Program-made: the position numbers and the translations under genes
Shown: positions 5,148 through 63,635 of the stretch, piece by piece
Layout: each line of letters begins with the position of its first letter
Numbering within the stretch: the stretch's first letter is position 1
Assembly (NCBI GenBank): GCA_037043015.1
Contig: CM073327.1
Span: forward strand, 4,384,727 to 4,448,726
Direction of reading: 5' to 3'
Source: Bryum argenteum
Lineage: Eukaryota; Streptophyta; Bryopsida; Bryales; Bryaceae
DNA length: 64,000 bases
Notes under the pieces: model-generated
The model's database searches: none
What the model was told of the DNA's origin: nothing
The model's input: only the letters and a program-made list of their open reading frames with translations

Positions 5148-6797
5148 TGTGAGCTAAAAAATCCTCCCACCGTCTTTCGAGGAATTAATAACAACACAAC
5201 GAGTTGAAAAGATCGACGAAAATAATGTTGGAGGATGAAAACAGCGCTGCTGGATGAAAACAGTGCTGGAGGATGAAAACAGCGCTGCTGGATGAAAACA
5301 GTGCTGCTGGATGAAAACAGCGCTGCTGGATCAAAACAACGCTGCTGGATGAAAACAACGCTTGTGGATGAAAACAGCGCTGCTGGATGAAAACAATTGG
5401 ATGACTGTTTTGAGAAAAACAGACTGGGAGCAGAGTTTAGAAAAAAAAACTTCCTAACTAAAAACCTTCATAACTTCCTCATTTTAACTCCGATTTTGAT
5501 CATTTTTGTGTCTCACCTTACTATCCTACATCTACACAATGAACAAGTAAAAATTAAATTTCGCCTTCAAGCACTAGCCTTCTACGAGCGCTTCCGGATC
5601 TGGTCCAACAAGAACAACACCGGCGAGCTCGAGATGTCACGACTTCCTACACCTTGTCCGTCGTCACACCATCACTCTTCGGCAGGATCGTCTCACAAAC
5701 CCCGTGCACTTCAACAACGACTTCTCTTCCGGCTTCGAATCCGACCGACCACATACACGCCAGCACCGTCACTGAACAACGTCGATCCACGAGTCTGTTG
5801 TACTGTCGCCGGCAATTGCACCTCCGGGAAGAAACTAATATCGTTGCAACAACCGGTAATTCTTCAACGCTTCAGCCACCAGAGATGAAGATTCACAAAC
5901 CACGCTGAAAAAAGAGAAACGGAAAAAAACGAACTTCTACTGATCATCAAGAAAACTAGTAACGATAAATTGTGTGTGTGTCTCAATTGCAAAACTAGAA
6001 AACTACTTATAGCATCAAATTGAAGACAATTTCAACTCACTAAGTGAGGGAGGGCGGCCGTGAGCTGAATTATTGGAGTTCATACTTATCAGATCATTTT
6101 TATGTAACTTAGTGTAGTCGCCGCACCATATAGTGTGGGCGGCACTTAACTAGTGTGGCACTGACTAATTAGTATGGGCGGAGGTTAATTAGAGTGGCCT
6201 CCGCTGAAATTAGTGTGGGCGGCAGTTAATTAGAGTGGCCTCCGCTGAAATTAGTGTGGGCGGCAGTTAATTAGTGTAGCCAGAAATTAGTATGGGTTGA
6301 GGTTATGAGAAAATGGCTATTAACTAATTACTGCGTTAAGAAATTAGTATGGGCGGAACATGGAAAATGGCTATTAACTAATTACTGCGAGTAGAAATTA
6401 GTATGGGCGAATAAACGGAAATGGGCTATTAGACTAATTATATGGTTAGAAAATTAGTAGAGGCTATAAAAGTGAAAGGGTTATTTAACTGAATACTACG
6501 ATAAAAAAAAAATTAGTATGGGAAATTAAATTAAAATGGCTTTTACCCAAATAATAAGATTAGAAAATTAGTATGGGAATTGAATTGAAATGGCTATATA
6601 ACCAAATACTAAAATTAGAGAATTAGTATGGGGAATTAAATTAAAATGGAAACTAGGATTAGAATTTAGAGTCGCTTAAATAATCAAAGAACATAAGTAA
6701 AATGAATTAGAGTTTTTTAGAAGTTTTTATAAAACATTTACTCAAAATTTGCAAAGTTAAGCAAATCTATGTTAATGAGTCATTTAGATGGCTCACA
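5148..6797 (-). repeat. Left LTR (3' LTR of the minus-strand element)
   Basis: Begins TGTGAGC and ends GCTCACA, a 7-bp inverted repeat. It matches 29266-30912 closely over most of its length, including a section of repeated TTAGTATGGG and GTGGGCGGCAGTTAATTA phrases (6120-6660). Differences are concentrated in the minisatellite at 5240-5400 and in short clusters near 5760-5890. No polypurine tract is obvious next to its inner edge (6798 onward). Confidence 0.93.
5240..5400 (+). repeat. Minisatellite in left LTR, CAG/CTG-rich version
   Basis: Tandem units of about 20 bp, consensus CTGGATGAAAACAGCGCTG. The equivalent units in the right LTR (29340-29515) keep GGATGAAAACAA but have CAA and CTT where this copy has CAG and CTG. 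Confidence 0.85.
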
Positions 6798-7914: not shown

Positions 7915-9945
7915 CTAAAAATTTATAAGACTTGCGATTTTCAAATCACACTTTGTACTCCTTTTGACCGACTTCCCGAGGTTCGGGTAGGGGAAGTCTT
8001 CACCGTTCAAAGTTTGTAATTGAACGGTGTTGTTGTGAAACACCTCCTTCACAACATATGGTCCCATCCATAGAGCATCAAATTTACCCGGAAAGTCCAA
8101 GCGTCGCGCATCTTGTAATAAAACCAACATACCCGGTCGAAGGGTTCTAACTTTGTTCCTTTTGTCATATGTTAGTTTCCTTCGCCGTTGGATGACTTCC
8201 ACATGTTGGGCGCTTGTACGCCTTGCTTCATCCAAACCTTCTAGAACTCCCAACCTATGACTCAAAGATGCGTTATCTGACAATCGTTCGTTAATAGCAA
8301 TACGCAATGATGGAATTTCAAACTCAATAGGTAAAACCGATTCTACACCATACACAAGGGAAAAAGGTGTGGCCCGAGTTGTAACCTTATAAGTGGTTCT
8401 ATAAGCCCACAATGCCGCCGGAAGTTTGATGTCCCAATCTCGTTTGGAGTCCAAGACGGTCTTGCGTAAAATGGTAACCAAGGTTTGGTTTACTCGCTCG
8501 GTATGACCGTTTGTTTGAGGATGAGAAGGCGTGGTTTTGCGATGGTTGATGTTAAATCGGGTGGTTAACTCATCAATCATCTTATTTAGAAAATGTTTGC
8601 CTCTATCACTAATTAAAATCTTAGGACAACCAAATCGGGTGATAACTTGTTCAAACAAGAAGTTGGCGGCATGTTTCGCATCATTTGTTCTAAATGCTCT
8701 TGCTTCTGCCCACTTGGTTAGATACTCGGTTGCTACTACAATATGTTGCATACCACGAGAAGAACTAGGGTGAATTTCCCCGATGTAATCAATTCCCCAT
8801 TTTTCAAAAGGAACTAGCGGCAAAGATACATGTAGCGGAAGATTCATACGCAAATCGTTCCGCGCATACCGTTGGCAAGCATCACACTTTTTAACATAAG
8901 TGTGGGCATCTTGAAACATATTTGGCCAATAATAGCCCGCTCTCAATGCTTTTTGGCCTGTTAACATGCCCGAGAAATGCCCCCCACATGCACTATCGTG
9001 GCATGCGGAGAGAATTGCCGGTATTTCATTTTCTGTGACACACCGGCGTAGTATAGAGTCTATCCCTCTACGATACAATCGGCCACCAATTACCGCAAAA
9101 TGGCGACTATTTACCCTTACCTTTCGGCGTTCATTTTTGGATAAACCCAACGGCATTGTTTGGTGAGTTAAAAACTCAGTAATGTAATCGTACCATGAAG
9201 GTTGGGAGGAAATGTGAAATAGATTCTCATCTATCAAACTATCATCGATAGGCATAGTGCTAGGCTCTCCCGGAAGTCTAGACAAATGATCCGCTTGGAG
9301 GTGTTTTCTCCCCGGTTTAAATTGTACCGTGTAGTCGAATTCTTCAAGGAGAAGGACCCACCGTGCAATTCTACCGCTTAGGTCGGCTTTATTGACCAAA
9401 TAGCGGATGGCCATGTGATCCACAAAAAACACTATGCGATTAAGCAAGAGGAAGTGTCTAAACTTTTTAACCGAGTAGACCATAGCTAAACACTCTCGTT
9501 CCGTGGTAGTGTAATTTCTTTCCGCGGCATTTAGTTGTCTACTAGCAAATGCAATAGGATAATCTCTCTTTCCTTCCCCGGTAGGTTGACACAGAGCACT
9601 ACCTACCGCTACCGCCGAGGCATCACAATAAACATGAAATGGTAATTCCCAATTTGGTGGTTTAAGCATGGGGTAAGAACTGAGATCTCGTTTGAGTGTT
9701 TCAAACGCTTCTTGGCACTCGGGGGTCCATTCAAATTTAATAGCTTTTTGTTGAAGCCTAGTAATAGGGAGGGCTTTTGTAGCATAATCATGAATTGTTT
9801 CTCGATACCAACCTATATGGCCCAAAACGCGTTGAATTCCCTTAACATCGGTAGGTGGTGCTAAATTAGCAATTACTTTAACCTTTTCTGGATCCGGTTC
9901 CCTACCATTCTGAGAAACTATGTATCCAAGTAATAATCCACGTTC
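7915..9945 (-). CDS. Retrotransposon Pol, C-terminal part: end of RT, RNase H, integrase
   Basis: Long open frame entering from the nested transposon edge. It starts in the RT tail at LLLGYIVSQNG and continues into the connection segment. RNase H follows, with the YCDAS active-site Asp, TERECLA and VDHMAIRYL. Integrase has the zinc-binding HDSACGGHF ... CDACQRY, then a catalytic core with WGIDYIGE, ISDRGKHF and the Glu in HPQTNGHTERVN, all intact. A GPY-like end (GPYVVKEVF) follows, with no chromodomain. The frame continues upstream to 10155, but only because it reads into the terminal repeat of the inserted Mutator-like element; true Pol sequence ends at the 9-bp target duplication. Its other half lies 14 kb away at 24026-24613. 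Confidence 0.93.
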   Translation of the reverse strand, partial: ERGLLLGYIVSQNGREPDPEKVKVIANLAPPTDVKGIQRVLGHIGWYRETIHDYATKALPITRLQQKAIKFEWTPECQEAFETLKRDLSSYPMLKPPNWELPFHVYCDASAVAVGSALCQPTGEGKRDYPIAFASRQLNAAERNYTTTERECLAMVYSVKKFRHFLLLNRIVFFVDHMAIRYLVNKADLSGRIARWVLLLEEFDYTVQFKPGRKHLQADHLSRLPGEPSTMPIDDSLIDENLFHISSQPSWYDYITEFLTHQTMPLGLSKNERRKVRVNSRHFAVIGGRLYRRGIDSILRRCVTENEIPAILSACHDSACGGHFSGMLTGQKALRAGYYWPNMFQDAHTYVKKCDACQRYARNDLRMNLPLHVSLPLVPFEKWGIDYIGEIHPSSSRGMQHIVVATEYLTKWAEARAFRTNDAKHAANFLFEQVITRFGCPKILISDRGKHFLNKMIDELTTRFNINHRKTTPSHPQTNGHTERVNQTLVTILRKTVLDSKRDWDIKLPAALWAYRTTYKVTTRATPFSLVYGVESVLPIEFEIPSLRIAINERLSDNASLSHRLGVLEGLDEARRTSAQHVEVIQRRRKLTYDKRNKVRTLRPGMLVLLQDARRLDFPGKFDALWMGPYVVKEVFHNNTVQLQTLNGEDFPYPNLGKSVKRSTKCDLKIASLINF
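9937..9945 (+). repeat. 9-bp target-site duplication, left copy (TCCACGTTC)
   Basis: TCCACGTTC here and at 24026-24034 flank the inserted element. Removing the insert and one copy restores a continuous RT reading from ...YFAVERG to LLLGYIV.... Nine base pairs is the usual duplication for Mutator-like elements. Confidence 0.9.
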
Positions 9946-9997
9946 GGGAGGTGCTAAGATGTGAGCCACGAGCAGCGAGCAGCGAGCCACGAGCAGG
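9946..9997 (+). repeat. MULE left terminal inverted repeat
   Basis: Begins GGGAGGTGCTAAGATGTGAG and continues into repeated CACGAGCAGCGAG-type units. It matches the reverse complement of 23973-24025 with a few substitutions and one indel. Confidence 0.85.
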
Positions 9998-10690
9998 CTG
10001 AGGGAGTTAACTTTGTGGGGAAAAGAAGAAAACAATCTTAGCAAAGAGGTCCTATGACCGTGGATTTTTGGAAGGTTATTTATTATTAATGGAAGACTCT
10101 GGTTATAATTAGGAAGACCAATTCTAGGAATGGAGTGAATTAAAGAGAATAACACCTATGACCGTGGACAAATGTAAGAATGTAAAATGGGAAAAATCTA
10201 TAGAAACTCCGATTGTTGTTTTTAAAGTTTGTGTACAAGAATGGTAATGCTGAAATCAAGATTTATACCATGTCAGTGGGCTTGTCTTCATAAAAAAATT
10301 CTCCAACGTTGAATAAGACCACTCGTAGCTCTATTGTTGCAGAAAGACGTATATAAACCTTATTAACATTCCAACGACTTTTAAGAGCTCATAATTAACA
10401 TTCCAAAACTTAACCTAGTACTTGTTAGCCATCATTATGAGAGAATAGGCAATTCCTTAGAAGTCATTGCTTGTGAAACAGCTTTTCTTGGATTTGTTGT
10501 GGCGAAGAGAGCTTACGTCACGTACACGGGTCGCAGATTGGACTCTAAAGGGCGAATACGAAGCTTATCGATTCAACTTGAATTGTGTGTGTATGAAATT
10601 TCAAACAATATGTAATAAAATCCAATCAAGTCCAATCAAATCAAATCAAATAAAATGAAAACAAAGAGAAGTCCGAAAATGTCGTTCAAA
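9998..10690. other. MULE subterminal non-coding DNA
   Basis: No supported gene. The phrase CCTATGACCGTGGA occurs twice (10050 and 10151). The short open frame 10467-10658 has no recognisable product. Confidence 0.5.
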
Positions 10691-10691
10691 C

Positions 10692-10957
10692 TCAAGATAT
10701 GCTACCATCGCTACTACCACTATCTAATCTCAAGGACTCAGAATCTCCTTCTACAGCGTCGGTATCCATAAACACAAGGACTCTCGGATCACAAGTAGTA
10801 GCTCGACTAGGATCATATCTAACGGCGCCAGATCAAACGCTTGTGCTAACTCTTGAAAGATACTGAAGAAGAATATATGGTCAATGGGACTAGAGTTCAT
10901 ACGCGACAATGGAATGGACACGGGTCTTGGCATAGGTCGCGTATTGCTGCAACTACT
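10692..10957 (-). CDS. Last exon of the methyltransferase gene
   Basis: Acceptor ATATTGCAG after a donor GTAAGT at 11067. The better frame ends in an acidic tail, DPRVLVFMDTDAVEGDSES, with a stop at 10692-10694. A second frame is also open, so assignment is uncertain. Confidence 0.35.
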
Positions 10958-11067
10958 CTGCAATATTAATTGAATGGTTGTTAGAATGAGTACGTACAGA
11001 TGTATTTAGAAGCGAAGGTAAGATAATGAGACTACAAGTATGGAAGTATAAAGTAAGACTTACTTAC

Positions 11068-11572
11068 AATCCCAGCGTTTGCGTTTTTGTTTCTTGCTAC
11101 GGGCTTCGCCATCAGGCGAAGGTCTAGGATGTTTAGGTGGGGCCATGAGAGGTTTTGGAGCGGCATATGGAGCTAGAAGGGCGTTGTAGATAGGTTCGTC
11201 ATCCTCAAACGCCAGAACGTGGCGACCAATCTCCTGGCAGGCCTTTATGGAAGCCCCTAAAATTTAAAGCATAGAGAAGAAGTGAGACTCAGTTGAAAAA
11301 GTGAGAAAAATGGAAATCTAGAACTATTTAGTGATCGGTTACCTTGTTCCTCGCCTCCAATCGAGGACTATGTCGCTTGGCTTGGTTAGTCGCTCAATGA
11401 GGGCTGCGCACAAATAAAGGGGCTTTCTCCCTTGGTCCTCTCCATGGTACGTTACCATTCATGAGCTGAGTCTCCGAAGTGGTGAGGTTGAACAAAGCAT
11501 CACTCTTGGTTATATTAACGTCTTCATGTATGACCTCAGATTTCTTCGTCTGGAATGAGAAATTTGATGCTA
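11068..11572 (-). CDS. Methyltransferase exons with SAM-binding (motif I) region
   Basis: Two exons, 11572-11343 and 11256-11068. The first ends with IERLTKPSDIVLDW, as in beta-class DNA methyltransferases where a Leu/Ile-rich helix and KPGD precede the VLDxFxGSGT SAM-binding motif. The second continues with SIKACQEIGRHVLAFEDDE, matching the following helix and the acidic strand end. A shift occurs just after VLDW, so the glycine-rich loop cannot be read cleanly. A basic tail (SKKQKRKRW) follows. Confidence 0.6.
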
Positions 11573-11710
11573 CTTCGCCACCTCGAGTGAAGACATAAAT
11601 CCAAAATCGAATAGACTGCAGACAAGTACCAAAACAGGTGAGGAAAAAGGAACTAATGTCATCACTTGAGTGTACAATGTCATCATTGGAATAAGTAAGG
11701 TGGTAATTAC

Positions 11711-12062
11711 CGTGGAGTTGGAATCCTTTGGAGAAGCCAAGCCCATATCATTGATGCCCCACCAATCCTTGTGCAACACAAAGTCGTAGGTGTGAGCCTG
11801 ATCAAAAATGTCTGTAATCAGGTTTCGATCATCGCAAAGGAAGAGAAGGAGAGCACCATCATTTTGCAAGAAATAGCTTGCAAACTCGAAGATGGTCTCG
11901 ACATATCCGGTGTGTCGAGCGTTCCACGACGGAATGCTTGAAGAAGGATTGGATATTGTTGGTACAGGAGATTCTCGGGGATGTCGGCAATGATCAAGTC
12001 GATCCCGAGTGATTCTCTTCCTTGCATTGTTCCGGAACTTGTGTTTGGCGGCCTTCTCCAAC
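11711..12062 (-). CDS. Methyltransferase exon with motif-IV-like segment
   Basis: Acceptor TTTCTTTAAG, donor GTAATTACC. In one frame the exon gives GIDLIIADIPENLL, and in a second frame YVETIFEFASYFLQNDGALLLFL followed by FVLHKDWWGIND. Together these resemble the target-base-binding (DPPY-type) strand and the next helix and strand of Rossmann methyltransferases. The two parts lie in different frames, so an indel lies between them, roughly at 11900-12000. The loop that should read DPPY/NPPY reads ADIP. Confidence 0.55.
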
Positions 12063-12149
12063 CTTAAAGAAAGTAGTAAGCAAAGTTAGTCTTTCTTGTA
12101 CTTAATAGAACTCAATTTATACAAAAGGAGTCCATCTAAAGGATTGTAC

Positions 12150-12843
12150 CTTGCGAATGAAATCTTGAAATTGAATCCATCTTGGATCACCACCGCTAAC
12201 TTTGTAGGTTTTCGAGTGCGAAGACATTAAGGTCTCCAAAGAATTGTTGGAAACGAAAACTTCGGACGAATGTGGAATTCCACTTGAAGAGCTGCTAGCG
12301 GGGATTTGTTTTGCCTTCCTCTGCTCAATGAGACTTTTTGTGATCTCCAATGCACTCACTGAGGAAGGCATGGTCAAAGGAGCAAGTGAAAGTTTAGCGA
12401 CGACTTTAGATTGGGCTTTTAGGAGGGCTCCGGACCCTTGTGCAGATGACTCTGTCTGCCCAAGCTCTGATGCTTGTGATTCCGAACCCAAGGAGACAAT
12501 GTCCGTCCCTCGACGCAAACGTCGCCCTCTCTTTGGCTTAGGTGCTCCTGCAAAAGACTGATCTTGGAGCCCTTCGTCATCTTCATGAACTTGCGTGGTA
12601 TATTCTTCCACCTCCACTCCGCCATCATGTAAGGTCATCACCTCGGCCTCTGAATCAAAGACAAATCCACAAACGCAGTCGAGATACCAACATCCTGCAT
12701 CCAAGTGTGGTTGTTTGTACCTTTTCAACTGTTGAGCAGAATAGATACATTGGTCTGAACCTTTCTGAATCCATGCAGCAAAGTACTTCGGGAGCGACTG
12801 TACATCGATGGCACCTTTCAGAAGTAGCTCCCTCTTGAAGTAC
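12150..12843 (-). CDS. Linker exon of the methyltransferase gene
   Basis: Acceptor TTGATTAG, donor GTACAATCC. The exon starts YFKRELLLKGAIDVQSLPKY, passes a Cys pair (WYLDCVCGFVFD) and an acidic stretch, and then becomes Ser-rich low complexity with KPKRGRRLRRG, a likely nuclear localisation signal. It ends with GGDPRWIQFQDFIRK. About 230 codons are open. Its place between the ParB-like and methyltransferase parts makes it a flexible linker with a nuclear signal. Confidence 0.55.
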
Positions 12844-12940
12844 CTAATCAATTAAGAATGCAATTTGTTTTAGTCACTAAGGTATCGTAGAATAAAGGAC
12901 ATTAATGATATAGCAAGGGAGGTTGAGTTCGTGTTCATAC

Positions 12941-13182
12941 CGGTACGTAACCCGCTTGACAACCTCTGACGTTCCCGGGAATTTGCTGAAATTTGACTTC
13001 TTATCGAAAACCTTCTCGGCTCGGGGACCTAGAAATGTGGGGAATGCTTTTTCCCACAGTAGAATACGCCAACTGTCTACATAGGCGCCAGGTCGCATGA
13101 CATCTGAAGATGTCTTCCAGTTGATGACGAGCTTCTCCGCCTTGCATATGTCCTTGAACTCGTGAATAACGGCTTCCTCCAA
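12941..13182 (-). CDS. Middle exon of the methyltransferase gene, unknown domain
   Basis: Bounded by acceptor TTCTTCTAG and donor GTATGA. It encodes about 80 residues beginning LEEAVIHEFKDICKAEKLV and including WRILLWEKAFPTFLGPRAEK. I do not recognise a domain. The frame is open, and the splice phases fit the next exon at 12843. Confidence 0.55.
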
Positions 13183-14175
13183 CTAGAAGAACAAATGTAA
13201 TTCATAAGAGACGAGAATGAATTGGGCCGAATGGATAATATTTTAAGCAATTTGGAAGGATTTATGGAAAACTATACCCCTGCCCAAAATGTTTGCCTTG
13301 TTCAACCAAGGGTCAAGTCCGCATCCTTGAATTCGGAGGTAGAAATCTATAAGAATGCCTTGAATTCGGAGAAGAATTCCACCACCTCAACCAACGAGCT
13401 TTGTATTTGGAATCCACAAATGGGCCGGAACTATCTTCTCGTAGCTTTTCCAATGACATCTCTGGGTTTAGAGAATTCACCGTAATGTCGATTGATCTCG
13501 TGAGAATAATAAGTCAAGTATAACATAGATAAATAGAATTATTATGTAATGAGAAAGAAGTATTTGCGGTGAAATAAGATAGACTCTTACTTCTGCAAGA
13601 AAATCGTCACCGTTTTTGGGATTTGCAATAGCCAAGTACTTGGTGAAGTCTTTCTTTGCAATGGCTTGGACCATATTATCGATGCCTTTGTCATTGCATC
13701 CCAAATTCCCGTGCTGATTTGATCCTCCTTTGGGATTTTCTCCATGTAGACTCTAGCGGCTTCATCGGAAGCCACCGCAATCTCCCATTGTAGAAAGATA
13801 ACATAAATTATAGAAAGAACTGAACAAACTGCAAAATATTGAGAAAAAAAAGATATTGTAAGGAATTCACACAAATCATTCTTACAATCTTACCCTCGTA
13901 TAGAAATGCAATGAACACTTTTGTTGTCATGGCAAACCATCGATCTTTAGTTTGTTTGTTTTTCTTGCGGGCATCGTACTCTTCCCGAACTCGGGAGATC
14001 CTTGAATTCTTCCAACTTCATCACTCCGAAAGAGCGGATGCGGTAAAGCTTTGCTGGAAGATTACTCTTTACGTAATCATTTTCAGTAGACCTGAACAAA
14101 GAATTAAAAAATTAGAGAATAGTAAAGAACAAGATATTAAGACGATTGAAAAAATATAATTAGCTCTACACTCAC

Positions 14176-14797
14176 CAGTTGATATCGTGCATGGCATTAA
14201 GAAGATTGCCCACTTGGCCGCGTGGGTCTAAAATAATGCAATGCACGGAGATGTGCCAATCGGGATCCTCAGCATGGTGATTGTTAATGTGTCTTAACCA
14301 TGCGGCCAGCCGATGGTTACCTTCCCAGACAAAGAACATCTTGCCAGAGAATTGCTTTAAATCAGGGTCTGCTTGAAGTTCGTCTTCAAAAGCCTGATTC
14401 GCCCTTTCCCAACATGGGCTCCAATCGGCCTTGACCTCCTCCATAACATCCGAAGACAACTCTTCGTTGTTGTACATAGAAATGTACATGACTCGGTCTC
14501 CATCTCGATATCCTTTCACAAACTCCCGCTCTAGATGTTGTATCCCCATTTCACCGACTGGTCTCACTTTAGCCATTGAAATCATCCTACACAAGGGAAC
14601 AAGTAACCGGGACTTCTTTAGGGGTTGAAATCGAACGCTGTTGATGACGTTGATGGAGTCCACCTTGTGAAGCGTTCGATGTTGCAATTCGCTATCAACA
14701 ACATTAGTCAAATTTGAAGGGCAAGTTGATGTTTGCAACACGTTTTGTGTTTGAATTTCCTGCCATAAGTCGAGCAAATTAACACTTGAATTCAACA
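14176..14797 (-). CDS. Exon encoding ParB-like (ParB/sulfiredoxin-superfamily) domain
   Basis: Open exon bounded by an acceptor (TTTCTACAG) and a donor (GTGAGTG). It encodes MAKVRPVGEMGIQHLEREF, then a segment rich in acidic residues, and then KMFFVWEGNHRLAAWLRHIN. An RP.G..G..HL element followed by GNHRLAAW resembles ParB-type domains, in which a GxHR motif contributes to nucleotide binding. In bacteria and phages such domains are found fused to DNA methyltransferases, which fits the downstream exons. A different GNHR-bearing fold is possible. The exon itself has no frame break. Confidence 0.6.
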
Positions 14798-15954
14798 CTG
14801 TAGAAAGTAAATACAAAAAAATTAAAACGCATATAATACCTCTGTTTCTTCTTGAGTAATGCCAAGATTAGCCATCTCCACGTTTTGACCCGAGGACTCC
14901 TAAATCAAAAGCAAAGATTATAAATCATACATAAGAATACTAACAAGGATAAACAGATCCAAAAAAATCATAAATGCAAAAAAACTAATTTGAAAACACT
15001 TAGGATGATACAGGAACACAAGACATTGCAAGGCAAGTATAAAACAATATCTCTTACTAGTCTACACAATCCTACAAGTTCGAGGGGAGGGGGGTCCTTC
15101 AAAATGCTTTCGGTGCCGAAAGCACTTTCTCTCCCTCTCTCATTTTTCGTGATCGTTTACCAACTCTTAAATCTTGGAATGGTTCCGGGGGAAGGCTTGG
15201 TGGTTCGCATAGCTTTTGGTGCCGAAAGCTTACATGCCACCTATCCCAATTCTCGGAACTTAATCGGCACACAACTAGACCCTACTACAACAACTTCTAA
15301 ATAAAAACTCTTCACTCTTTCCGACTACATGACTACCAAAGTTCAATCATATGTGCGATCTAAACTTCTCACAAGAAGAGCACCGAAATCAATCACAAAC
15401 TCTCCAATCTCAAAATGGTTCCGGGAAAGGGTCAGGTAAGCATAGCTTTCGGTCTTAAAAGCTTACCCGACTCCTCGCCAAAATCTCGGAACTCAATCGC
15501 TAAAGCACGAGACTCTACCACAGTATATTGACTTTGAAATAATAATCACTGCAAGCCGGTTGCATGACCACCAAGATTTTGGGAAAACAAGAATGGTTCC
15601 AAGGGAAGGCTGGGTGCTCAACCTAGCTTTCGGTGACGAAAGCTTACCCGCCTCCTCAATCCTCATGAGCAATTTTTCAAATGTACAAACTTGACATTTC
15701 ACGACTAGACCACCAATGATGATCAAAATTTTGGGAAAACCGGAGTGGATCCAGAGAAAGGGTAGGTGCTCAGCCTAGCTTTCGGTGCCGAAAGGTTACC
15801 CACGTCTTCACCTTCGTCTTGGAACTTAATCGATGCATGAGACCCTACCACAAATTTAAAAACCTGGAACCTGAGAAACTCGAAAAAACTTACCTTTGGG
15901 CACGGGTGGATCGGCTACGAGTTATTGATTTCTAAAATGATTTATTGATTTCTA

Positions 15955-16068
15955 AAACTCACGAAGCAAGAGCGAAAGAAATTGCGGAAGGATGAAAAGA
16001 AAAAAGCTGCTGAAGAGAAGAAAGCAGAATTAGAAGCCACAGCCAACGGAGACATCGATCAAAACCAG
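15955..16068 (+). pseudogene. Lys-rich captured exon fragment
   Basis: Plus-strand exon-like segment encoding LTKQERKKLRKDEKKKAAEE and ending IDQNQ before a GTTTGT donor-like site. Highly charged and helical. It lies just upstream of the NOC3 fragment and could come from the same or another captured gene. Confidence 0.35.
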
Positions 16069-16350
16069 GTTTGTTGAGCTCAAGACTGAATGAGATATAA
16101 CGATGTTTTAATTCAAGACTTTTCGGAATCCGGCTCTTTGAATACTCGTTTGCTCATGAACATTGTTTACTTGTTGATTCTCAAACTTTAAAACGGCGAT
16201 ATGGTTTTATTCAGGTGAGGCTTGGAAGATGATTATGAGCAGACTTTGAGCTTTTCTACTGTCTCGTGCGGGGAGAAGTGAGTTACATTTCGATCGAGAT
16301 AGGCGAATGGAGCCGAAAGCGCATATGGCGTAGCCGGGGATGGGGCTTCT

Positions 16351-16665
16351 TTCAAACCCCGAAGCCAACCTCGGATCGTTGAAAGAGCTTCGGGAGATGT
16401 GTGAAGATCGTGATGATCCCGTTGCTCGATTGGCGCTTCGTCCTCCATGGTCATTTTCAAAGACATTCTACCCGGTAACTTGATTACGCCAACATTCTTT
16501 AAGCCATGGCCTCTTTAGTTCGGTGATCTGATTTTACCGCATGATACTTCAACAGGTATCGTATAAGGTTGCCTACTGACTAAGGAGTTAGAGATGGTTG
16601 TGTCTAAAGAAGTCCGTCAACTACGAGACTTTGAGACCGCTCTCCTTAAACATTATCAGGTATAC
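16351..16665 (+). pseudogene. NOC3: Captured fragment of NOC3 (nucleolar complex protein 3)
   Basis: Two exon pieces with an intron between (donor GTAACTTG near 16474, acceptor TTCAACAG near 16555). They encode NPEANLGSLKELREMCEDRD, then VIFKDILPG, then YRIRLPT and KELEMVVSKEVRQLRDFE. This is the conserved N-terminal segment of NOC3, a ribosome-biogenesis and pre-replication factor. Two 1-nt shifts (before VIFKDILPG and after YRIRLPT) break the frame. The intron is retained, so capture was at DNA level, as for Pack-MULEs, not from mRNA. Confidence 0.8.
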
Positions 16666-16928
16666 CAATCCTATGGCTCATATCCTGTTCAAGCAACGCT
16701 TCTCCTTCTGCATCCTGTAGTGGCTTGATTACATTGTGTTATCGAGGCTTCAAGCAGTTTTACATCAAGGGGATGATCGTCAGACAGAAGCTGGTTTAGA
16801 TAGAAGCGATTGGCGACGACCGTGAGCCTAGCTTTCGGTACCGAAAGCTTGCCCGCCTCCTCACCTTCGCTCGATGCAAGCACAAAGGCCGGCCACTTGA
16901 AACCCTAAGATACTCAGAAAAAACTCAC

Positions 16929-17298
16929 CTGATCGTCATCTTCTTCTTTTGATTTGTCTTCATCGCCGTCGTTGTAATCTTCGTGAGCACTTGCGCCTCC
17001 CTTGTCCGCTCCGTCGCCGACATCACCTCCAATGTCGATTCCTGGAACCTCTCCCCCGCTTCCTTCAAACTCCTCTCGAGCTCCCTCTCCCCCCTCTCCC
17101 ACATGTTCTTCTTCCTCAGGGCCTTGCCTGGCCAGCCTTGCTCCGCCCCTCGCCACCTCGCCTCCAGCAACATCTCTTGCCTCCTCCATGATGCTGAATC
17201 TCGCCCTCCTGGCTAGGCTGCGCATCACCTCCCCCTCTTCTCCCTCGAGACGGAACCCTCCGCCTTTGGAATTCTGCGACAGCAGTGAAGAAAGGCAA
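16929..17298 (-). CDS. Possible 5' exon, acidic/Gly-rich protein
   Basis: Minus-strand open frame ending DKSKEEDDDQ directly before a canonical donor (CAG|GTGAGT). Gly-, Glu- and Asp-rich low complexity. It may be the first exon of the methyltransferase gene, which would place the palindromes and NOC3 fragment in a 2-kb first intron, or it may be another captured piece. Confidence 0.35.
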
Positions 17299-17304
17299 TA
17301 TTCG

Positions 17305-18540
17305 TAAGTAATGAAGATAACCCTAGATCTAAGCTAGATTTAGAAAGGAGAAAAAAATTCCAATGGACTATTCAACCAGTAGAAGGAGGCACTTTGATTG
17401 GTGGAAGTGGGTCTGGCCTCATCAGTTGGAGGATTATAAATCATTTCGTCAGCATATGAAGAATCACTTCACCAAATGCCAGATATTTTTATAACTTATT
17501 CTTAGAGGGACAAAAAACACTGGACTTTCATTGATGTGTTACACATACAAACTGTCAATGGAAATGTAGGGAGCGCATTTTATATATACATGTTCATTCT
17601 TTACTATTTATATGGCGATATTTATTACATTGAGACAATTTGAATTCTCATATTTAATTTGGAGATAAAGAAAAACCGTTCAACATGTTCAATATTGAAT
17701 CTTTTTGATAAGTCTAGGTTTTTACATATCAATATACATGAATACCTTTAATTGTCGCCCAAAAGTTGCGTTCAAGTTTTATGGTTTCATATAGTTCGAA
17801 ATTGCAAAATCCACCCCTAAGACCTGATCTATTTTGGTTACACTTGCACCAATCAAAGATTCAATAAAGAACTCACAGTCTATCAATCCTTAGTACGAGT
17901 TAATACAATCTTTCAGCTACCTGCACCAAGTATTACTAAAAAATACATTAATTTAGAAGACACATATCCATATTCATTACGGATTTTTATGGAAATAGTG
18001 GACTTACTTCTTCCGATTGGCATTCGCCACCGGATTGAGAATTTATCTCCACTGAACGAGAATCCTTTTTACCAAAGGAAGGCTGAGGTGACTCCATTGT
18101 TCGATCACACTCCAATACTAAACCTCTCATCATCTCTCCACGTCCTCCCTCACTGCAAACTACCTCGTGTTGTTGACGCTCGACAACGAGATCCACACTA
18201 CGCTCTTCTTCCCTCTCAACTCTAGGATCTAGAATGAGTTTACGAATGCTATAGAACTTGGTCGGAAATGGCAGCCCATCCCCTTGTCTCTTCACGGGTG
18301 CGTCATCGAACGAGACACTCTTCATAAACTTCCTTATCGCCTACTCTCCTATGTCTCGCTCTCCTATTCGTCCGTTTGTTGCCCCCGGTTTCCTCCTCCT
18401 CTTAGGTGTCACATAAGTAGAGGGCGAAGGCGCTCCACCCTCCTTCATGTGTAGACGATCTCTAAGGACCCTATCTCACTTAAAAACACGTTGCTTCTCT
18501 CTATACCATCTCGTACCTCAACATTCCATGCCTCTTTAAC
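17305..18540. other. MULE internal DNA without a recognised gene
   Basis: AT-rich up to about 17980. A minus-strand open frame of 112 codons (17987-18325) encodes a charged protein that I do not recognise. Its last three plus-strand bases before it (near 18330) give no clear splice site. Confidence 0.4.
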
Positions 18541-19175
18541 CACTTCACATGAACACATAGTGTCGACTATATAAAACCTTTCAAAAAAATTAATTAGTTA
18601 ACCCAACTAATACATATAACTTTATTTTGAATTATATCTTCTCTTTTAGTATGCATATCTTTGATAAACGGCGGAGTACAATTTTATCATTCTAGATCCA
18701 ATTGGGCTACTATTATTGAGCACAGAAAGTGACCCTTACCAAATCGCTTTAATAATCTATCAACACTTTATACTCTGGACTTATTTTAAGTACACCACTT
18801 GGGTTCCCAACGGCTTCTCTATTCTTGCTAAATGAGTTATTTCCATGTGACAATTAATCACTTCACATAAACACATACTGTCGATTACTAAAACCTTTCA
18901 AAAAAATAATTTAGTTAACCCAACTAATATATAACTTTATTTTGAATTATATCTTCTATTTTAGTAAGCATATCTTTGATAAACGGCGGAGTACAATTTT
19001 ATCATTCTAGATGCGATTGCGCTATTAATATTGGGCACAGAAAGTTACCCTTACTAATTTGCTTTAATAAGCTATCAATACTTTATACTCTGGACTTATT
19101 TTAAGTACACCACTTGGGTTCTTGGCGGCTTCTCTATTCTTGCTGAATGAGTTATTTCCATGCGACAATTAATTA
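18541..19175 (+). repeat. 320-bp tandem duplication in the MULE
   Basis: 18541-18860 and 18861-19175 are similar along their length. Both contain AAACGGCGGAGTACAATTTT and TACACCACTTGGGTTC and end GAGTTATTTCCATG. They differ by scattered substitutions, so the duplication is not new. No coding content. Confidence 0.85.
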
Positions 19176-19493
19176 CATACGTTTTAGAAGTACAACTCCG
19201 AAAGTATCTTGACGTAATCTATTCCATGTCACTAGATGGCTGTACATTCCATCCTGAAATTAGTCGACAACGGATGCCTATTTATCCATACTATAATCAA
19301 ATCTCTCGACAACCGCAAAACAATGAACTAAAAGATAATTTAATTCTTCATTCTTTCTGACATTAATCAACCACAATTTCATCTCGTAGTCGCATTGTCA
19401 TTGTTAAGCTACATAAGGTTAATCGAATAACTGAATGCCTCTTTGCAATTAGTGTACCTTCTAAGGTAGACATACTGTGCTTGCTCCCCTTCT

Positions 19494-22400
19494 TTGATGA
19501 TGGCGTCCATACGTGCAAACGGATTTGGTATCCCCTTCACTTTTCCTCTTGGCGAAGATGGAAAGGTCTTTGTGGACGAATTGATCTTGGAGGCAAAGTT
19601 TGGTCTTCAGATGGGTAGAATGTATGTTGAACAAGAGCTTACATCTGATGTCGATGATGTAGTGGAGACTGTTCTGCAATTGAAGAGTAGGCAAGGTGAT
19701 TCTGTAGGTTGGATGCTATCAGCAGGGTCTTACAAAGTATTTGGCTACTCGAGCTCAGCATTGCAAGGATCTACAGTGTGCCTCACTCCAGCCTTCTCAC
19801 CCTCCACTGTCCTCCTCACCCCACTGCGGGTCCTGCGCGAGTGAAGATTGAGCCAGACACAGAGCCAATCACGCTACTTAGTGATTCCGATGATGACATA
19901 GTTCCAACAATCGATCTAACGAGCACATGTCCGTTTCCTTTCAAACGAACCCCGTCGTCAAGTGTTGTACGTAACAACATCAACTTGCCACTCCAAAGGA
20001 CAACATCAAGTAGTGTAGCTAGGCCACCCCGTAGTCCCACATTTTCCGTCAAACACATATCCATGTTAGATGCCTTGAAGGCGATCATTGTCGCCCCGTT
20101 CCCAATCCGCGCTATCAGACATTAACTTTGACAATATCAGGGTCGAAGAAGTCAAGTACATCCCCACCACTTACGATGGGGACGTTATTTTCTTGCTTCC
20201 GCCTTTACCAAGTGGATTGCCTGCAACATACGGCAAGAGCCTAGACGGGATGGACAAGGTTTATGACGGCAAACCGTGGTGCACTACCAAGACCTCTAAC
20301 ATCAGGAACGATTGCTCCCTCATATTCCGACGCTCCGTTTGCGCTGGACATCTACAATGTGAAACCGACTCCTGCGAGTATCTTTTCCGAAATGGCGGTG
20401 TCCGGAACAATACACAGTGGACAGGTATCACTCATTCTCAATTCCATGTCGGTGGCCCCCCTCCCTTAAAATCTACCTTCATGTGTAAGGTTTGTCTAAC
20501 ACCACCTTCCTGCTTAGCCCTCTGTAATGCCCAACTGTACCATGTTACTTCTGCCAATCCCGAAATGCACCGTGCATTTATTCATCTCGGCCATCACAAT
20601 CATCCAGTGGCTGAAGGCGTATGCCGGGACTCATTAGATCTCACGTATGAGTTCGTGGCGTCTGAAGTGTCACGAACTCCAAAGGCGACGAACTGTGCCA
20701 TTCAAATGGCAGCGAGTAAGAACTTCTTAGCAGATTTTTTGTTCAAAACACCAACTCCAGGAGAAAAACATCATAGTCTCGAATCAATCATCGATCGCTT
20801 TGCCCCACTTGCCTCTCCTAATTGTAGGAACATTGTCTCTGCTTCAAGACGCCTTGTGAAATCCTCGCGTGCCCCTATGGAGGGGATTATCGACCTCAAG
20901 AAGAATCCCCACTTCAAGTTCGTGCATGATAATCGATTCCCAGGACAATGTGACGACAAGGTGTTCATTTTCAAGATGTCTCGTGGACCTAGAAGGGAGT
21001 GGGGTGGACCTCGTGAAGCGTATGCAAAGGGAGGAAACCTCCAAGATGCATGGATTATGTTTGACAACGTCAAACGAGTGAAAGAGTGGACGACGTTGGC
21101 ATGCCATGTCTACGACACTAATTATCGCAAGGTAATGACAATTGCCTCGCCGCGATATGCAATCAAGATGCGGTTGCTCGAGATTCTCTTTTGGGAGAAC
21201 CTTAACAAGGTTATGGCCGAGAATGGCGTTTTGAATGTCAACTTCAAAGGATTCATGGCGAGATAGTGCCCAAGCGAATTGGATTGCGGTCGGGAAGGTG
21301 TATGGATCGGAAACCCGATGAGCCTATGGAGGGACGTGAACGTACATGCTTTTATCATTGGTCCGCAAACCTTGATAAATATACGACAAAGTACATCAAA
21401 CCGAGTTGCAATATCAACACAAGCAACTTTGCCGTGATTATAGAGATGCAAAGACCCAAAGGGAGGTCGACGAGAAATACCATGCAATTCGTGCATGGTG
21501 GGCTACCTCCGCGCGCGCAATAGAAGAATCTTTGGCATCTTTATCGAAATGGTTGGGTTTTTGGCACCATCGATATAGGCAATGGGGCGGCCAAATGATA
21601 TTGGTGAGTTCAATTATCTTTTCTCCATGTTCTTTCTTCCAACAAAAACGACACATTGTGACTTGAATAGACACTCACAAATCATTCGGATTTGCAGGAT
21701 TTGACATTGGAACAACGTGCGGACATGCCTTCATGTAATCTAGCGAGTCCGTTCATCACAAGTGGTTGATGCGATCCGCAATACCATGGAATGCATTTAT
21801 GAAGCAACGATGGACGACATGATTCGAGCGTTTATGCAGATCACCAACTATCGTGAATGGCTCAAAGGTGGACAAGGAGGGAAGGGCCCTGACAAAGCAG
21901 CTTTGATGCTAAGGGCAGCAACAAACAGCGGCGATCCTAAACTCATTGCAGCTGCCATGAAGTCATTCCCCGGGGCTGGGGATCTCCCTAATCATCCAAT
22001 TATTCTTGAAGGGGCTGAGATTTTTGGTTCCACAAAGAGGAAGCTCGATTTACCGGCCGGATCTGAGTTCGATTCACATCGCCCAGATAAGGTAAACTAC
22101 TCCATTCCCAAGCCAAACACTAGGTCAACCAAACAACGAATTGAGGAGTCTCTCAAAAGCCCCCAACACCATATTCCTCACACAACAAGGGTGATGGAGT
22201 CGAACTGTGATCCCAAGCAATGGCACATTGCTCGACTTCCCAAGTCTTCGGGGAGGCAGTGTCAAGCGCTTCAAGCCATATCAAGGGAGGCGTGTAGAAC
22301 GAAGATTTCACAAGGGGCACATGGCACTCCAAAGACCAACCTATGCGGGCAGAAGAAAGATGTTAGGAAGGGTCGCAATGTTGAAGCGGAGTTCTTTTTC

Positions 22401-23057
22401 TGCCCGGACGACATTCATCGTTGTGTTATGGGTAGCAAAAGACCATTTGTTTTGGATTGGCCCATCGTCCCTCTATCTTGGCCCGTGAAGTTTGGAACCA
22501 ATTTGACACGCGAAGAGGTTCTGAAGCTCGAAGATGCCGGGTTCCAGTTACAACAACAAGAAGCATTGTCACCCCGGCAAAAGTTCCAATCTCAGGTGAA
22601 TATTCCTATACCACGTTCGCAATTCCATGCTCCCGACCATATGGATGCTCATCCCAGTACCAGGTTTGGAAAGAAGTGTCGTCGAAGTCCAGATGCCCCT
22701 AGCGCCGATCACAAGAATAGATGGATGAGTACGGGCCACATGAACGGATACTACATCACTGGCGTGACTGTGGTTCCGAATCCGGGGTGTGGTGTGGTCA
22801 TCACCATCGTCAATGACAAAGACAAGGCATACCTTGTTTCAGTGTGCACTATTCCACAATGTACTTGTGAAGACTTTGTAGGTATGAGCTCTAAGGCAGC
22901 GAGTAGGAAGTGGGTGCCTTGCAAACACCTTTATTATGTTTTCCGATACTTATGTAAGATGAACTATGAGACAGAGAAGTTCATTCACCAGCCTACATAT
23001 TCCTACAACGAGGTCATGCAGATTCTAGAGCTTGCTGGAATTGTTGAGAAAGAGTGA
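19494..23057 (+). pseudogene. MULE transposase with SWIM zinc finger (frame-broken)
   Basis: Three plus-strand open blocks (19494-20125 in two frames, 20088-21266, 21762-23057) read in the order of a plant MULE transposase. There is an N-terminal region with SUMO-type motifs (VKIEPD, ITLLSDSDDD, PTIDLTS), then a Cys/His cluster (CETDSCEYLF ... HLGHHNHPV) like WRKY-GCM1 fingers. A catalytic region follows (EWTTLACHVYD, MTIA, FKGFMA, then KYHAIRAWWATSARA, LGFWHHRYRQWGG). The C-terminus has a SWIM finger (CTCEDF ... WVPCKHLYYVF). An intron at about 21604-21696 has GTGAGT and TTGCAG. Frame breaks lie near 19800, 20100, 21150 and 21270. The role is cutting and joining DNA at the terminal repeats. 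Confidence 0.8.
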
Positions 23058-23917
23058 ATCCTTCAAATTACTGCAAGCCTATTCTGCAAGTTGATATTCA
23101 TAGACCTTAAAGTAGCAGTATAGTGAGGGCAGCAATTTTGGTTATTATTCAATTCAATTAATGACTGCAGAAATTGGCAAGTATTTCATCCTATGTGTGA
23201 ATATAGTTTTAATATATTTGATGTACTTGAGAACTGCCTCTATGTATGAAATCTTCAATGTATTGTCATTCCCCCAGCTTGTTATATATGATATACTATA
23301 ACCACATTAGTTTCTTGAAGATCCATCCATTCTCTTATGTGTAGCATATTCACCTTTATGCACTTATTTCTTTTAAGGGTATCTTATTTCATTTTTTCCC
23401 CATACTCTATGTGTCCTCCGTTTCTCTACTTGTATTTGCGTAGTTTGGATTTTTTTCATTATTATTCTTTCTGGAAGTCTTCGTTCATATCTATTTTTTT
23501 TTATTTTTTTCGTTTTATTTTTTAATTTTTTTTCCTTCGACTTGCCATTTGCTTTGTTTGATATCCTTTGTTTCTATTTGTTTATAATCTTTGGTTCCCA
23601 AATTTTTATTCCAAATTTTTCTATCACATATCTTATGTGTGTGTTTCTATTTGTTTTTATTAATATTTTTTCTCTTTGATATTTCTCGTGGTCCCTTTTT
23701 ATTATTCGTACGTTTTATTTCCTGTGGCTTTCATATGTGTGTTTTTGAAGGATTCCTAAATTATCAATTTATATACCCTATTACCATTGGATTCCAATAT
23801 TCCACGCTTATAGGCCCCCTTTCTCACAGACTAGTTTCTTGTTTCAATTTCTACAAAGTCGTTCATTTCTCATTAATTTAAGGGAACTTACGAACAATTT
23901 TCCATGTGAACAGTGAC
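23058..23917. other. T-rich MULE 3' region
   Basis: Transposase 3' flank, very T-rich on the plus strand. Phe/Tyr-rich open frames (23337-23525, 23591-23881) reflect composition only. Confidence 0.5.
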
Positions 23918-23980
23918 TTGCTCACATGTTCGTGCTCGTTGCTCACATGTTCTTGCTCGCCGCTCACATGTTCCTGCTCG
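23918..23980 (+). repeat. MULE subterminal 21-bp tandem repeat
   Basis: Three head-to-tail copies of a 21-bp unit with core GCTCACATGTTC and end TGCTCG (23918-23938, 23939-23959, 23960-23980). Subterminal repeats often serve as transposase-binding sites (inference). Confidence 0.85.
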
Positions 23981-24025
23981 GTGCTCGTGGCTCGTGTCTC
24001 GTGGCTCACATCTAAGCAACATCCA
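23973..24025 (-). repeat. MULE right terminal inverted repeat
   Basis: Inverted match to 9946-9997, sharing CTCGTGGCTCACATCT. It is followed directly by the second TCCACGTTC. Confidence 0.85.
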
Positions 24026-24613
24026 TCCACGTTCAACCGCAAAATAGATTTTGTCTGGATTTAGAGCAATCCTAAATTTCCTACATCGTTCAAAACATGC
24101 TCGCACCGCATCTAAGTGTGCTTCTTTGGTAGATTGAGTGCTAAAATCATCGATAAAAACGGTCATGGACTTGTGTAGCAAATCGGAGAAAGCGCAAGTC
24201 ATGGCCCTTTGGAATGTAGAGGGTGCATTACATAGTCCAAATGGCATGACCACATAAACAAAAGTGCCCCAAGGTGTTATAAATGCCGTTTTGTGATAAT
24301 CTTCCGGAGCTACCGCAATTTGGTTATAACCAGAATAACCATCCATGAAGGTGTAGTTAGCAAAACCGGCCACCTCATCTAAAATGGTGTTGATGAATGG
24401 AAGTGGAAAGTGGTCTTTTTGCGTGCATTGGTTTAGTTTCCTATAGTCAATGCAAACTCTTAACTTACCATTCTTTTTCTTCACCAATACCATTGGTGAG
24501 ACCCAATCCGCGATTTCAACGGGTTTAATGAAACCGGCTTCACTTAACTTTTCTAATTCTGCTTTAACAAGAAGTTGAAGAGCGGGGTTCATCCGACGTT
24601 GTTTTTGTCTCAC
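24026..24613 (-). CDS. Retrotransposon Pol, reverse transcriptase part
   Basis: Encodes GFIKPVEIADWVSPMVLVKK, CIDYRKLN, MDGYSGYNQI, MPFGLCNAPSTFQRAM and the catalytic FIDD box, ending at YFAVERG where the MULE interrupts. The open frame continues to 23888 only through MULE terminal sequence. The product would copy element RNA into DNA in cytoplasmic particles. Together with 7915-9945 it gives a complete RT. Confidence 0.93.
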
Positions 24614-29265: not shown

Positions 29266-30912
29266 TGTGAGCTAAAAAATCCTCCCACCGTCTTTCGAGG
29301 AATTAATAACAACACAACGAGTTGAAAAGATCGACGAAAATAATGTTGGAGGATGAAAAACAATATTCTTGGATGAAAACAATCTTCTTCTTGATGAAAA
29401 CAAATATTTCTTTGATCAAAACAACGCCTTTGGATCAAAACAACGCCTTCTTTGGATGAAAACAACGCTTGTGGATGAAAAACAATATTTCTTGGATGAA
29501 AACAATTGGATGACTTTTTGAGAAAAAACAGATCGGGAGCAGAGTTTAGAAAAAAAAACTTCCTAACTAAAAACCTTCATAACTTCCTCATTTTAACTCC
29601 GATTTTGATCATTTTTGTGTCTCACCTTACTATCCTACATCTACACAATGAACAAGTAAAAATTAAATTTCGCCTTCAAGCACTAGCCTTCTACGAGCGC
29701 TTCCGGATCTGGTCCAACAAGAACAACACCGGCGAGCTCGAGATGTCACGACTTCCTACACCTTGTCCGTCGTCACACCATCACTCTTCGGCAGGATCGT
29801 CTCACAAACCCCGTGCACTTCAACAACGACTTCTCTTCCGGCTTCGAATCCGACCGACCACATACACGCCAAAGACTCGCCATCAACAACGCCGATCCAC
29901 GAGTCATTGTGTCTTCGTCGCGGCAATTGCACCTCCGGGAAGAAACTAATATCGTTGCAACAACCGGTAATTCTTCAACGCTTGACCACCGTGAGATGAA
30001 GATTCACAAACCACGCCAAAAAAGAGAAACGGAAAAAAAACGAACTTCTACCGATCATCAAGAAAACTAGTAACGATAAATTGTGTGTGTGTCTCAATTG
30101 CAAAACTAAAAACTACTTATAGCATCAAATTGAAGACAATTTCAACTCACTAAGTGAGGGAGGGCGGCCGTGAGCTGAATTATTGGAGTTCATACTTATC
30201 AGATCATTTTTATGTAACTTAGTGTAGTCGCCGCACCATATAGTGTGGGCGGCACTTAACTAGTGTGGCACTCGACTAATTAGTAGTATGGGCGGAGGTT
30301 AATTAGAGTGGCCTCCGCTGAAATTAGTGTGGGCGGCAGTTAATTAGAGTGGCCTCCGCTGAAATTAGTGTGGGCGGCAGTTAATTAGTGTAGCCAGAAA
30401 TTAGTATGGGTTGAGGTTATGAGAAAATGGCTATTAACTAATTACTGCGTTAAGAAATTAGTATGGGCGGAACATGGAAAATGGCTATTAACTAATTACT
30501 GCGAGTAGAAATTAGTATGGGCGAATAAACGGAAATGGGCTATTAGACTAATTATATGGTTAGAAAATTAGTAGAGGCTATAAAAGTGAAAGGGTTATTT
30601 AACTGAATACTACGATAAAAAAAAAAATTAGTATGGGAAATTAAATTAAAATGGCTTTTACCCAAATAATAAGATTAGAAAATTAGTATGGGAATTGAAT
30701 TGAAATGGCTATATAACCAAATACTAAAATTAGAGAATTAGTATGGGGAATTAAATTAAAATGGAAACTAGGATTAGAATTTAGAGTCGCTTAAATAATC
30801 AAAGAACATAAGTAAAATGAATTAGAGTTTTTTAGAAGTTTTTATAAAACATTTACTCAAAATTTGCAAAGTTAAGCAAATCTATGTTAATGAGTCATTT
30901 AGATGGCTCACA
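29266..30912 (-). repeat. Right LTR (5' LTR of the minus-strand element)
   Basis: Same ends as the left LTR (TGTGAGC, GCTCACA). It contains the CAA/CTT version of the minisatellite at 29340-29515. It would carry the promoter for the element RNA; no TATA box was assigned with confidence. Confidence 0.93.
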
Positions 30913-32236: not shown

Positions 32237-32652
32237 GTGAGTGTGGATCCTACGGTATTAGAAAATGCTGCAAAATTGTGAAGAAAATATAATTGTGAGT
32301 TATACATACAAAGCATACATCCAAGGGACGTGGCATGGCTTAGCTTGAATTGTAGTTGGTCCAAAATTTGTGCCTCTGGTAATGGTAATAATACTGTAAG
32401 TAAAGTCATCCAAAAGCAAAACCGAGTAAAGTCATCCAAAAGCAAAAGCCCCTTTGGTAAGGATTGCAAGGATGCCTCACAGGATCATACCCTTACGAAA
32501 ATGCAGACTGATGCACGATCATAACCTTTCGAAAATGCAGACTGATGCACGATCACAACCTTACGAAAATGCAGACTCATGCACGAATGGGGCGTTTACA
32601 ATGTGCTGTTTAGGGCTTGTGTTGGAATTCCCCTCCTGGTGGGAAGGGAAAG

Positions 32653-32838
32653 GAGGGCTGCGCCGGCCAAGGAGGTAGTGCAAGACCAAGGCGACACAAG
32701 GGCGGCGAAGAAGTCGGATAGCCCCACTCCCAAGAAAAATTAGATTAATATCATGGGGATCGATGATCCCCGTGACGATATTAAACTGATGAGAACAGAT
32801 ACTACACTTGATCTTAGCCAAAAGGCCGAGAAAGGTAT
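32653..32838 (-). ncRNA. U2: U2 snRNA, copy A (variant, possibly non-functional)
   Basis: Begins ATACCTTTCTCGGCCTTTTG at 32838 on the minus strand and includes the branch-point-pairing GTAGTA and an Sm-type AATTTTTC. The 3' half is typical of plant U2 but divergent. Compared with copy B the stem IIa region reads CTCATCAG...ATCGTCA instead of CTTATCAG...ATCTGATA, which weakens the stem. U2 pairs with the intron branch site in the nucleus. Confidence 0.85.
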
Positions 32839-32861
32839 GCTTCTCCCATCTCTCCCGCCCG

Positions 32862-32908
32862 CTTTTGTACCCTGCACCCCTCCGCCTCTCCTCCCACGCC
32901 TATGGGAT
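32862..32908 (-). promoter_or_regulatory. Possible snRNA promoter elements of U2 copy A
   Basis: ATCCCATAGGC at 32898-32908 lies about 60-70 bp upstream of the U2 start, where plant snRNA genes carry the upstream sequence element (RTCCCACATCG). TACAAAAG lies about 25-32 bp upstream, where a TATA element is expected. Position fits; the sequence match is partial. Confidence 0.4.
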
Positions 32909-53740: not shown

Positions 53741-53764
53741 TTTCCCGGCTCGCGAAAAGAACAA

Positions 53765-61225: not shown

Positions 61226-61229
61226 ATTT

Positions 61230-63624: not shown

Positions 63625-63635
63625 ATCCCATAGGC
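63625..63635 (+). promoter_or_regulatory. Possible snRNA upstream element of U2 copy C
   Basis: ATCCCATAGGC starts 69 bp upstream of U2; same as copies A and B. Confidence 0.4.

Follow-up and report, generated by a model that had tools for sequence, protein, structure and literature searches.

The window analysed here, a stretch of 64,000 nt (contig CM073327.1 of assembly GCA_037043015.1, positions 4,384,727 to 4,448,726 of the forward strand), contains a Mutator-like DNA transposon with a cargo gene for a beta-class N4C/N6A amino-methyltransferase. On balance, we consider this gene to be a decayed transposon accessory gene of a class known from algae, that is, a protein of about 1,000-1,100 amino acids (aa) whose N-terminal part is probably ParB-like and whose C-terminal part is a beta-class methyltransferase, encoded antisense to the transposase of a Mutator-like plant element. 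The methyltransferase domain, the spliced structure of the gene, the boundaries of the transposon, the opposite orientation of the two genes, the frame breaks and a cluster of palindromes directly 5' of the cargo gene are established directly. In its domains, strand and size the layout corresponds to the one described for an accessory gene of Ectocarpus, whose transposon is of an unrelated superfamily. The parts of the cargo gene, and an exon that may precede it, are as follows.

11060 to 14899, minus strand: cargo gene body, with 10 exons, 9 introns of 80-104 nt and six exonic frame breaks.
11060 to 12062, minus strand: exons of the beta-class N4C/N6A amino-methyltransferase (PF01555), with motif IV (DIPE), motif I (DWRRGTG) and a basic C-terminal tail.
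14176 to 14759, minus strand: exon with the ParB-like motif VWEGNHRLAAW, a sequence motif with no profile support.
16929 to 17225, minus strand: candidate 5' exon of 99 codons, acidic, terminating at a CAG/GTGAGT donor; inferred from the sequence.

Seven of the nine introns have GT-AG borders as called, and the remaining two acquire them after a one-base shift of one border. The gene contains two open frames, of 244 and 231 aa. When the interval was shuffled by dinucleotides (n = 300), two frames of at least 231 aa were never obtained and one such frame was obtained once. Because of the long open frames and the regular short introns, we regard this as a formerly working eukaryotic gene. Its product, read through the frame breaks, is 993 aa long, and the stretches between the joins all occur in minus frames of the window. 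An earlier note on this DNA had described a spliced minus-strand gene in which VWEGNHRLAAW (approximately 14.3 kb), DLIIADIP (12.0 kb), LTKPSDIVLDW (11.4 kb) and ACQEIGRHVLAFEDD (11.2 kb) follow one another. This was borne out, with nine introns of 80-104 nt, and the basic nuclear-type signal that it reported is also present at the C-terminus (SKKQKRKRW, at about 11.1 kb), where such a tail fits nuclear import. If the candidate 5' exon were spliced to position 14899 the frame would be kept, the protein would be about 1,100 aa long and the palindrome cluster would fall within a first intron some 2 kb long.

The profile PF01555 (N6_N4_Mtase) is matched by residues 741-952 of the 993-aa protein with 28.0 bits. 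The domain alone, with its frames joined directly, gives 31.9 bits (E 1.7e-7) over positions 1-216 of the 221 in the profile, for which the curated cut-off is 26.7 bits. Placing X at one break gives 31.0 bits and masking the glycine of motif I gives 27.2 bits; when both exonic breaks carry X the score is 26.4 bits (E 7.7e-6), slightly below the cut-off. X at four joins lowers it to 18.1 bits (E 2.8e-3). Of the C-terminal pieces tried alone, the last 56 aa give 23.5 bits (E 6e-5) and the last 121 aa 24.5 bits. PF01555 was not matched by the middle piece on its own, by the reversed protein or by any unjoined frame. Chance as the origin of the motif series is ruled out by the two long frames and by the PF01555 match, which every joined version gives, as do the last 56 aa by themselves, and which is absent from the reversed control. 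Comparison of the methyltransferase with the PDB gave DpnA (6.3e-5) and CcrM (2.2e-3). In PHROGs a phage DNA methyltransferase family was matched across the C-terminal part (best 9.1e-10), and in NCBIfam CcrM was matched at 3.4e-6, far under the cut-off of that model. A tblastn search of phages with the whole protein (E up to 1) returned 208 records; among 20 of the matches listed, 14 are annotated methyltransferases, 5 hypothetical proteins and 1 is unannotated, at 21-35% identity and all within the methyltransferase part. Relatives of the domain were also sought in viral contigs, where none was confirmed. We take the domain to be real, in agreement with the earlier note.

Motif IV precedes motif I in the cargo methyltransferase, which is the order of the beta class. 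The consensus of that class is (D/N/S)PP(Y/F/W) for motif IV and FxGxG for motif I. Aligned with DpnA, motif IV of the cargo reads DIPE where DpnA has DPPY, and motif I, DWRRGTG (the last G supplied from beyond the final intron), corresponds to DPFMGSG of DpnA. With DIPE at motif IV, the cargo copy may therefore be inactive even leaving its frame breaks aside. The family as a whole might be an accessory factor that binds DNA and represses or clamps the element, its methyltransferase fold being catalytically dead or limited to binding S-adenosylmethionine. The alignment of DIPE to DPPY, the retention of the motif I glycines as RGTG with the last G across the final intron, and the palindrome cluster adjoining the cargo gene would all suit such a factor. 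However, a single frame-broken copy cannot reveal motif IV of the family and the substitutions may be decay, and we think this explanation unlikely.

The N-terminal part is probably ParB-like, to judge by its likeness to a published two-domain architecture. VWEGNHRLAAW resembles the GxxR box of ParB-like domains, which holds the arginine of Box II and is followed by a helix; the cargo exon reads GNHRLAAW. ParB was not found in Pfam with four differently cut pieces (E up to 10; the only match was Leader_Erm, E 0.077, below its cut-off), in NCBIfam and PHROGs (E up to 1) or in the PDB (E up to 10). With a 161-aa piece as the tblastn query (E up to 10), 1 of 50,697 phage records and 3 of 72,556 plasmid records were matched, none of them a ParB, and no relative of the exon was confirmed in viral contigs. 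The AlphaFold model of the exon alone, made without an alignment, has a predicted local distance difference test score (pLDDT) of 33.5 and is unusable as fold evidence. The earlier note had spoken of a ParB-like domain; what was found is one motif, with none of Pfam, NCBIfam, PHROGs, the PDB, phages or plasmids giving a ParB. It had also proposed a search of the spliced exons against both families, which gave a match to PF01555 (31.9 bits with direct joins, against a cut-off of 26.7) and none to ParB.

The transposon, its transposase gene and the element in which it resides are as follows.

9946 to 24024: Mutator-like DNA transposon of 14,079 bp, both termini starting GG, with inverted repeats and a flanking direct repeat.
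9936 to 9945: target-site duplication, left copy, direct repeat ATCCACGTTC, 9-10 bp.
24025 to 24034: target-site duplication, right copy, direct repeat ATCCACGTTC, 9-10 bp.
19493 to 23057, plus strand: decayed transposase gene with a C-terminal SWIM-like CxC...CxH (CTCEDF..PCKHLYYVF).
5148 to 30912, minus strand: Ty3/gypsy retrotransposon which received the transposon, spanning 25.8 kb, with long terminal repeats (LTRs) 95% identical.

The terminal inverted repeats are 46 nt long and 83% identical (9952-9997 and 23973-24018). Target duplications of Mutator-like elements (MULEs) are 8-11 bp, and the element has both the terminal inverted repeats and a duplication within that range. Its target duplication, termini and SWIM motif together suggest a Mutator-like element. 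The transposase gene is frame-broken too and lies on the strand opposite to the cargo gene; its C-terminal half was sought in viral contigs and no relative was confirmed. The flanks of the transposon belong to one Ty3/gypsy polyprotein: one flank has RNase H and integrase (Pfam), the other reverse transcriptase (by eye). The LTRs of the Ty3 element are at 5148-6797 and 29266-30912 (Kimura two-parameter distance, K2P, 0.047). The borders of the transposon are fixed because the 14,079-bp element is inserted into the Ty3 element, and since the inverted ends and the 9-10 bp duplication split one Ty3 element, the transposon moves as a single unit. Two repeats were seen in it besides: a 315-nt unit in two tandem copies (90% matches) at 18536-19173, between the cargo gene and the transposase, and the 21-nt subterminal repeat TTGCTCACATGTTCCTGCTCG in 3.3 copies at 23918-23986, adjoining the right terminus.

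Transposon accessory genes of this class, though little studied, are already known from algae. An account of Ectocarpus Sola1-1_Ec32 (Dinatale et al. 2025, PMC12477816) describes a ParB-like plus N4C/N6A methyltransferase gene antisense to the transposase, and cites similar green and red algal proteins (Iyer et al. 2011, pmid 21507349; Petroll et al. 2025, doi 10.1016/j.cub.2025.04.044). These cases contradict the earlier note, which knew of no described example. As in that account, the gene described here encodes a long protein with the methyltransferase domain and, to judge by one motif, a probable ParB-like part, runs antisense to the transposase and lies in a giant DNA transposon. The Ectocarpus protein has 1104 aa; the one here, read through, has 993 aa, or some 1,100 if the candidate 5' exon is included. 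The features of the algal accessory genes found here are thus the methyltransferase, the antisense strand and the location in a DNA transposon, and the ParB part is represented by one motif. The two differ in that Sola1-1_Ec32 comes from a brown alga and belongs to the Sola superfamily, whereas the present gene is in a plant and a Mutator-like element; the comparison is one of described features.

Further parallels come from other papers. A ParB-CTPase fold fused to an N6_N4 methyltransferase, more frequent in phages (PMC12704722), is the same domain pair tied to mobile DNA; those fusions are prokaryotic or of phages and prophages, whereas the gene here has no ParB profile match. Retrotransposons of dinoflagellates and charophytes carry DNMT genes, for which self-methylation has been proposed (PMC5890265), and there too the methyltransferase is transposon-borne, but the enzymes are C5-cytosine methyltransferases of host origin and the carriers are retrotransposons. 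The bdelloid rotifer N4CMT, an amino-methyltransferase making N4-methylcytosine (4mC) in a eukaryotic genome (PMC8885841), and the sperm 4mC methyltransferases MpDN4MT1a/b of Marchantia (PMC8566409) are described as host genes, while here the gene is transposon cargo. A land-plant transposon with this gene pair was not found in the literature at the level of titles and openings of abstracts, which left subscription papers mostly uncovered. So far as that literature goes, the Mutator-like carrier, the probable occurrence in a land plant, the captured NOC3 fragment and the cluster of six palindromes are new. The last two are placed as follows.

15105 to 16849: six copies of the 20-nt palindrome AGCTTTCGGT(R)CCGAAAGCT, at 15105, 15211, 15444, 15625, 15777 and 16830.
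16349 to 16660, plus strand: captured host NOC3 (nucleolar complex protein 3) fragment, between palindromes 5 and 6, identified by PF07540 and PDB.

Elsewhere in the window the palindrome does not occur with up to 5 mismatches, and occurs once with 6, at 49833. Its 18-nt core, sought on both strands with at most 3 mismatches, has 11 matches, all at the six sites; 0.05 were expected, and 100 shuffles gave at most 2. The palindrome was not found in viral contigs. In the core the copies are on average 84% identical pair by pair, whereas the 20 nt to its two sides average 45% and 51%. The palindrome array may nevertheless have nothing to do with the protein, being either a degenerate, hairpin-prone intronic or promoter repeat produced by local duplication or a site for a host transcription factor, and we hold the chances of this to be even. 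Copies 2-6 have flanking homology in common, typical of an old local duplication, and the dyad pairs kept in copies 1-6 number 9, 8, 6, 8, 8 and 10 of 10; the copy with only 6 of 10, in which much of the symmetry is lost, speaks against strict constraint. Copy 1, on the other hand, resembles the others in the core only: there it is 85% identical to four of the five and 70% to the fifth, but 25-45% over the neighbouring 20 nt in either direction. At its outer pair T-A replaces the A-T of the other copies, and because this pair differs on both sides yet stays complementary, the dyad symmetry has been kept.

The cargo protein may have its target in the palindrome cluster, a reasonable candidate because a protein that binds DNA as a dimer would require a site of this kind. 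No palindrome cluster was found described in the literature consulted for similar systems, and none is mentioned in the available account of Sola1-1_Ec32. The proposed mechanism begins with a recurrently acquired, element-borne protein that would recognise element DNA and methylate an amino group in it. Intact members of the family would make a nuclear protein that binds the DNA of the element, possibly by dimerising at the palindromes, and methylates it, which could alter either the silencing of the element by the host or the timing of transposase action. That the cargo protein might bind and methylate the DNA of its own element is plausible. A role in self-marking or in escape from silencing, which the earlier note had suggested, drew no support from the computations. 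A self-recognition module in the manner of ParB-parS, in which a ParB-like methyltransferase would load at the six 5' palindromes and write 4mC or N6-methyladenine (6mA) on the transposon, is a more specific proposal, and one that we consider quite unlikely.

The NOC3 fragment matches PF07540 with E 4e-13 and 50.1 bits (pieces joined by eye) and NOC3 in the PDB with E 6.5e-4. It apparently retains intron remnants, and a further piece at about 15957-16067 was assigned by eye only. The presence of this fragment indicates that the transposon captures host genes, and the methyltransferase gene could have entered in the same way, as a passive, Pack-MULE-style capture of a host amino-methyltransferase gene (for example a relative of Marchantia DN4MT1) with no role in transposition. 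The reported 4mC methyltransferases of Marchantia sperm (MpDN4MT1a/b, PMC8566409) offer a conceivable source. But the cargo gene is long and multi-exon, unlike the short NOC3 scraps, and its layout and antisense position are those of the accessory gene which PMC12477816 describes in an unrelated algal transposon. Passive capture seems to us improbable.

The exonic frame breaks of the cargo gene, which the earlier note overlooked together with DIPE at motif IV and the nesting of the transposon in the Ty3 element, are at about 13991, 13700, 13394, 13352, 11932 and 11420, the last two within the methyltransferase domain. Phases also fail to join as called across two further introns. This copy cannot make the full-length protein now, unless some of the breaks are assembly errors, which is possible because some of them are at short homopolymers (by eye). 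The LTRs provide a clock for the decay, with K2P 0.047 and 9 frame-breaking gaps per 1632 aligned LTR bases. At that rate up to 8.3 frame-breaking indels are expected in 2,994 exonic bases since insertion of the Ty3 element, compared with 6 counted, so decay after landing suffices, and the insertion may have brought in an intact gene. The clock overstates the rate, however, because in approximately 6.1 kb of Ty3 coding sequence 16.8 are expected and 3 were counted by eye (P 5e-5). With that Ty3 count as the yardstick the cargo breaks are in excess (6 of 9, P 0.04). There are no in-frame stops before the terminal one, against up to 3.3 expected, a count biased by the switching of frames to avoid stops.

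Several points weigh against the accessory-gene reading. The ParB part is recognised by no profile searched, and neither the read-through transposase nor its C-terminal piece has a Pfam match. The methyltransferase falls below the curated PF01555 cut-off once joins are masked (26.4 and 18.1 against 26.7 bits), and no single unjoined open frame matches that profile. Compared with (D/N/S)PP(Y/F/W), DIPE has neither the first proline nor the aromatic residue. Finally, the evidence comes from one copy of the transposon.

Elsewhere in the window the features bear on the host.

49376 to 53803, minus strand: TIR, NB-ARC and LRR frames of one disease-resistance gene (PF01582 2.4e-21, NB-ARC 1e-30, LRR_14 2.2e-18).

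The three domains are spread over three neighbouring minus-strand frames (Pfam). The combination of TIR, NB-ARC and LRR points to a streptophyte, most probably a land plant. The earlier note's placing of a bacterial-type amino-methyltransferase gene between the ends of a plant Mutator-like transposon is upheld by these frames as to the plant, and by the inverted termini and target duplication as to the transposon. Directly downstream of the disease-resistance frames on the same strand, an open frame at 47296-48297 has two PF12248 (Methyltransf_FA) matches, and this frame and the disease-resistance frames may form one gene or a gene pair. A 3.7-kb sequence is repeated in inverted orientation at 32540-36273 and 60237-64000, with 94% identity.

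If the gene is what we take it to be, a little-known class of accessory genes described in brown, red and green algae would also occur in a probable land plant, and a Mutator-like element would join its carriers. The association would then be recurrent across unrelated transposon superfamilies, and this would speak for a role in transposition or in evasion of silencing, for which the palindrome cluster supplies a concrete candidate target sequence. Should the self-recognition proposal prove true, a plant transposon would mark its own DNA with a base that the 5-methylcytosine (5mC) machinery of the host does not make. More speculatively, such elements may have been a source of host 4mC enzymes in early land plants.

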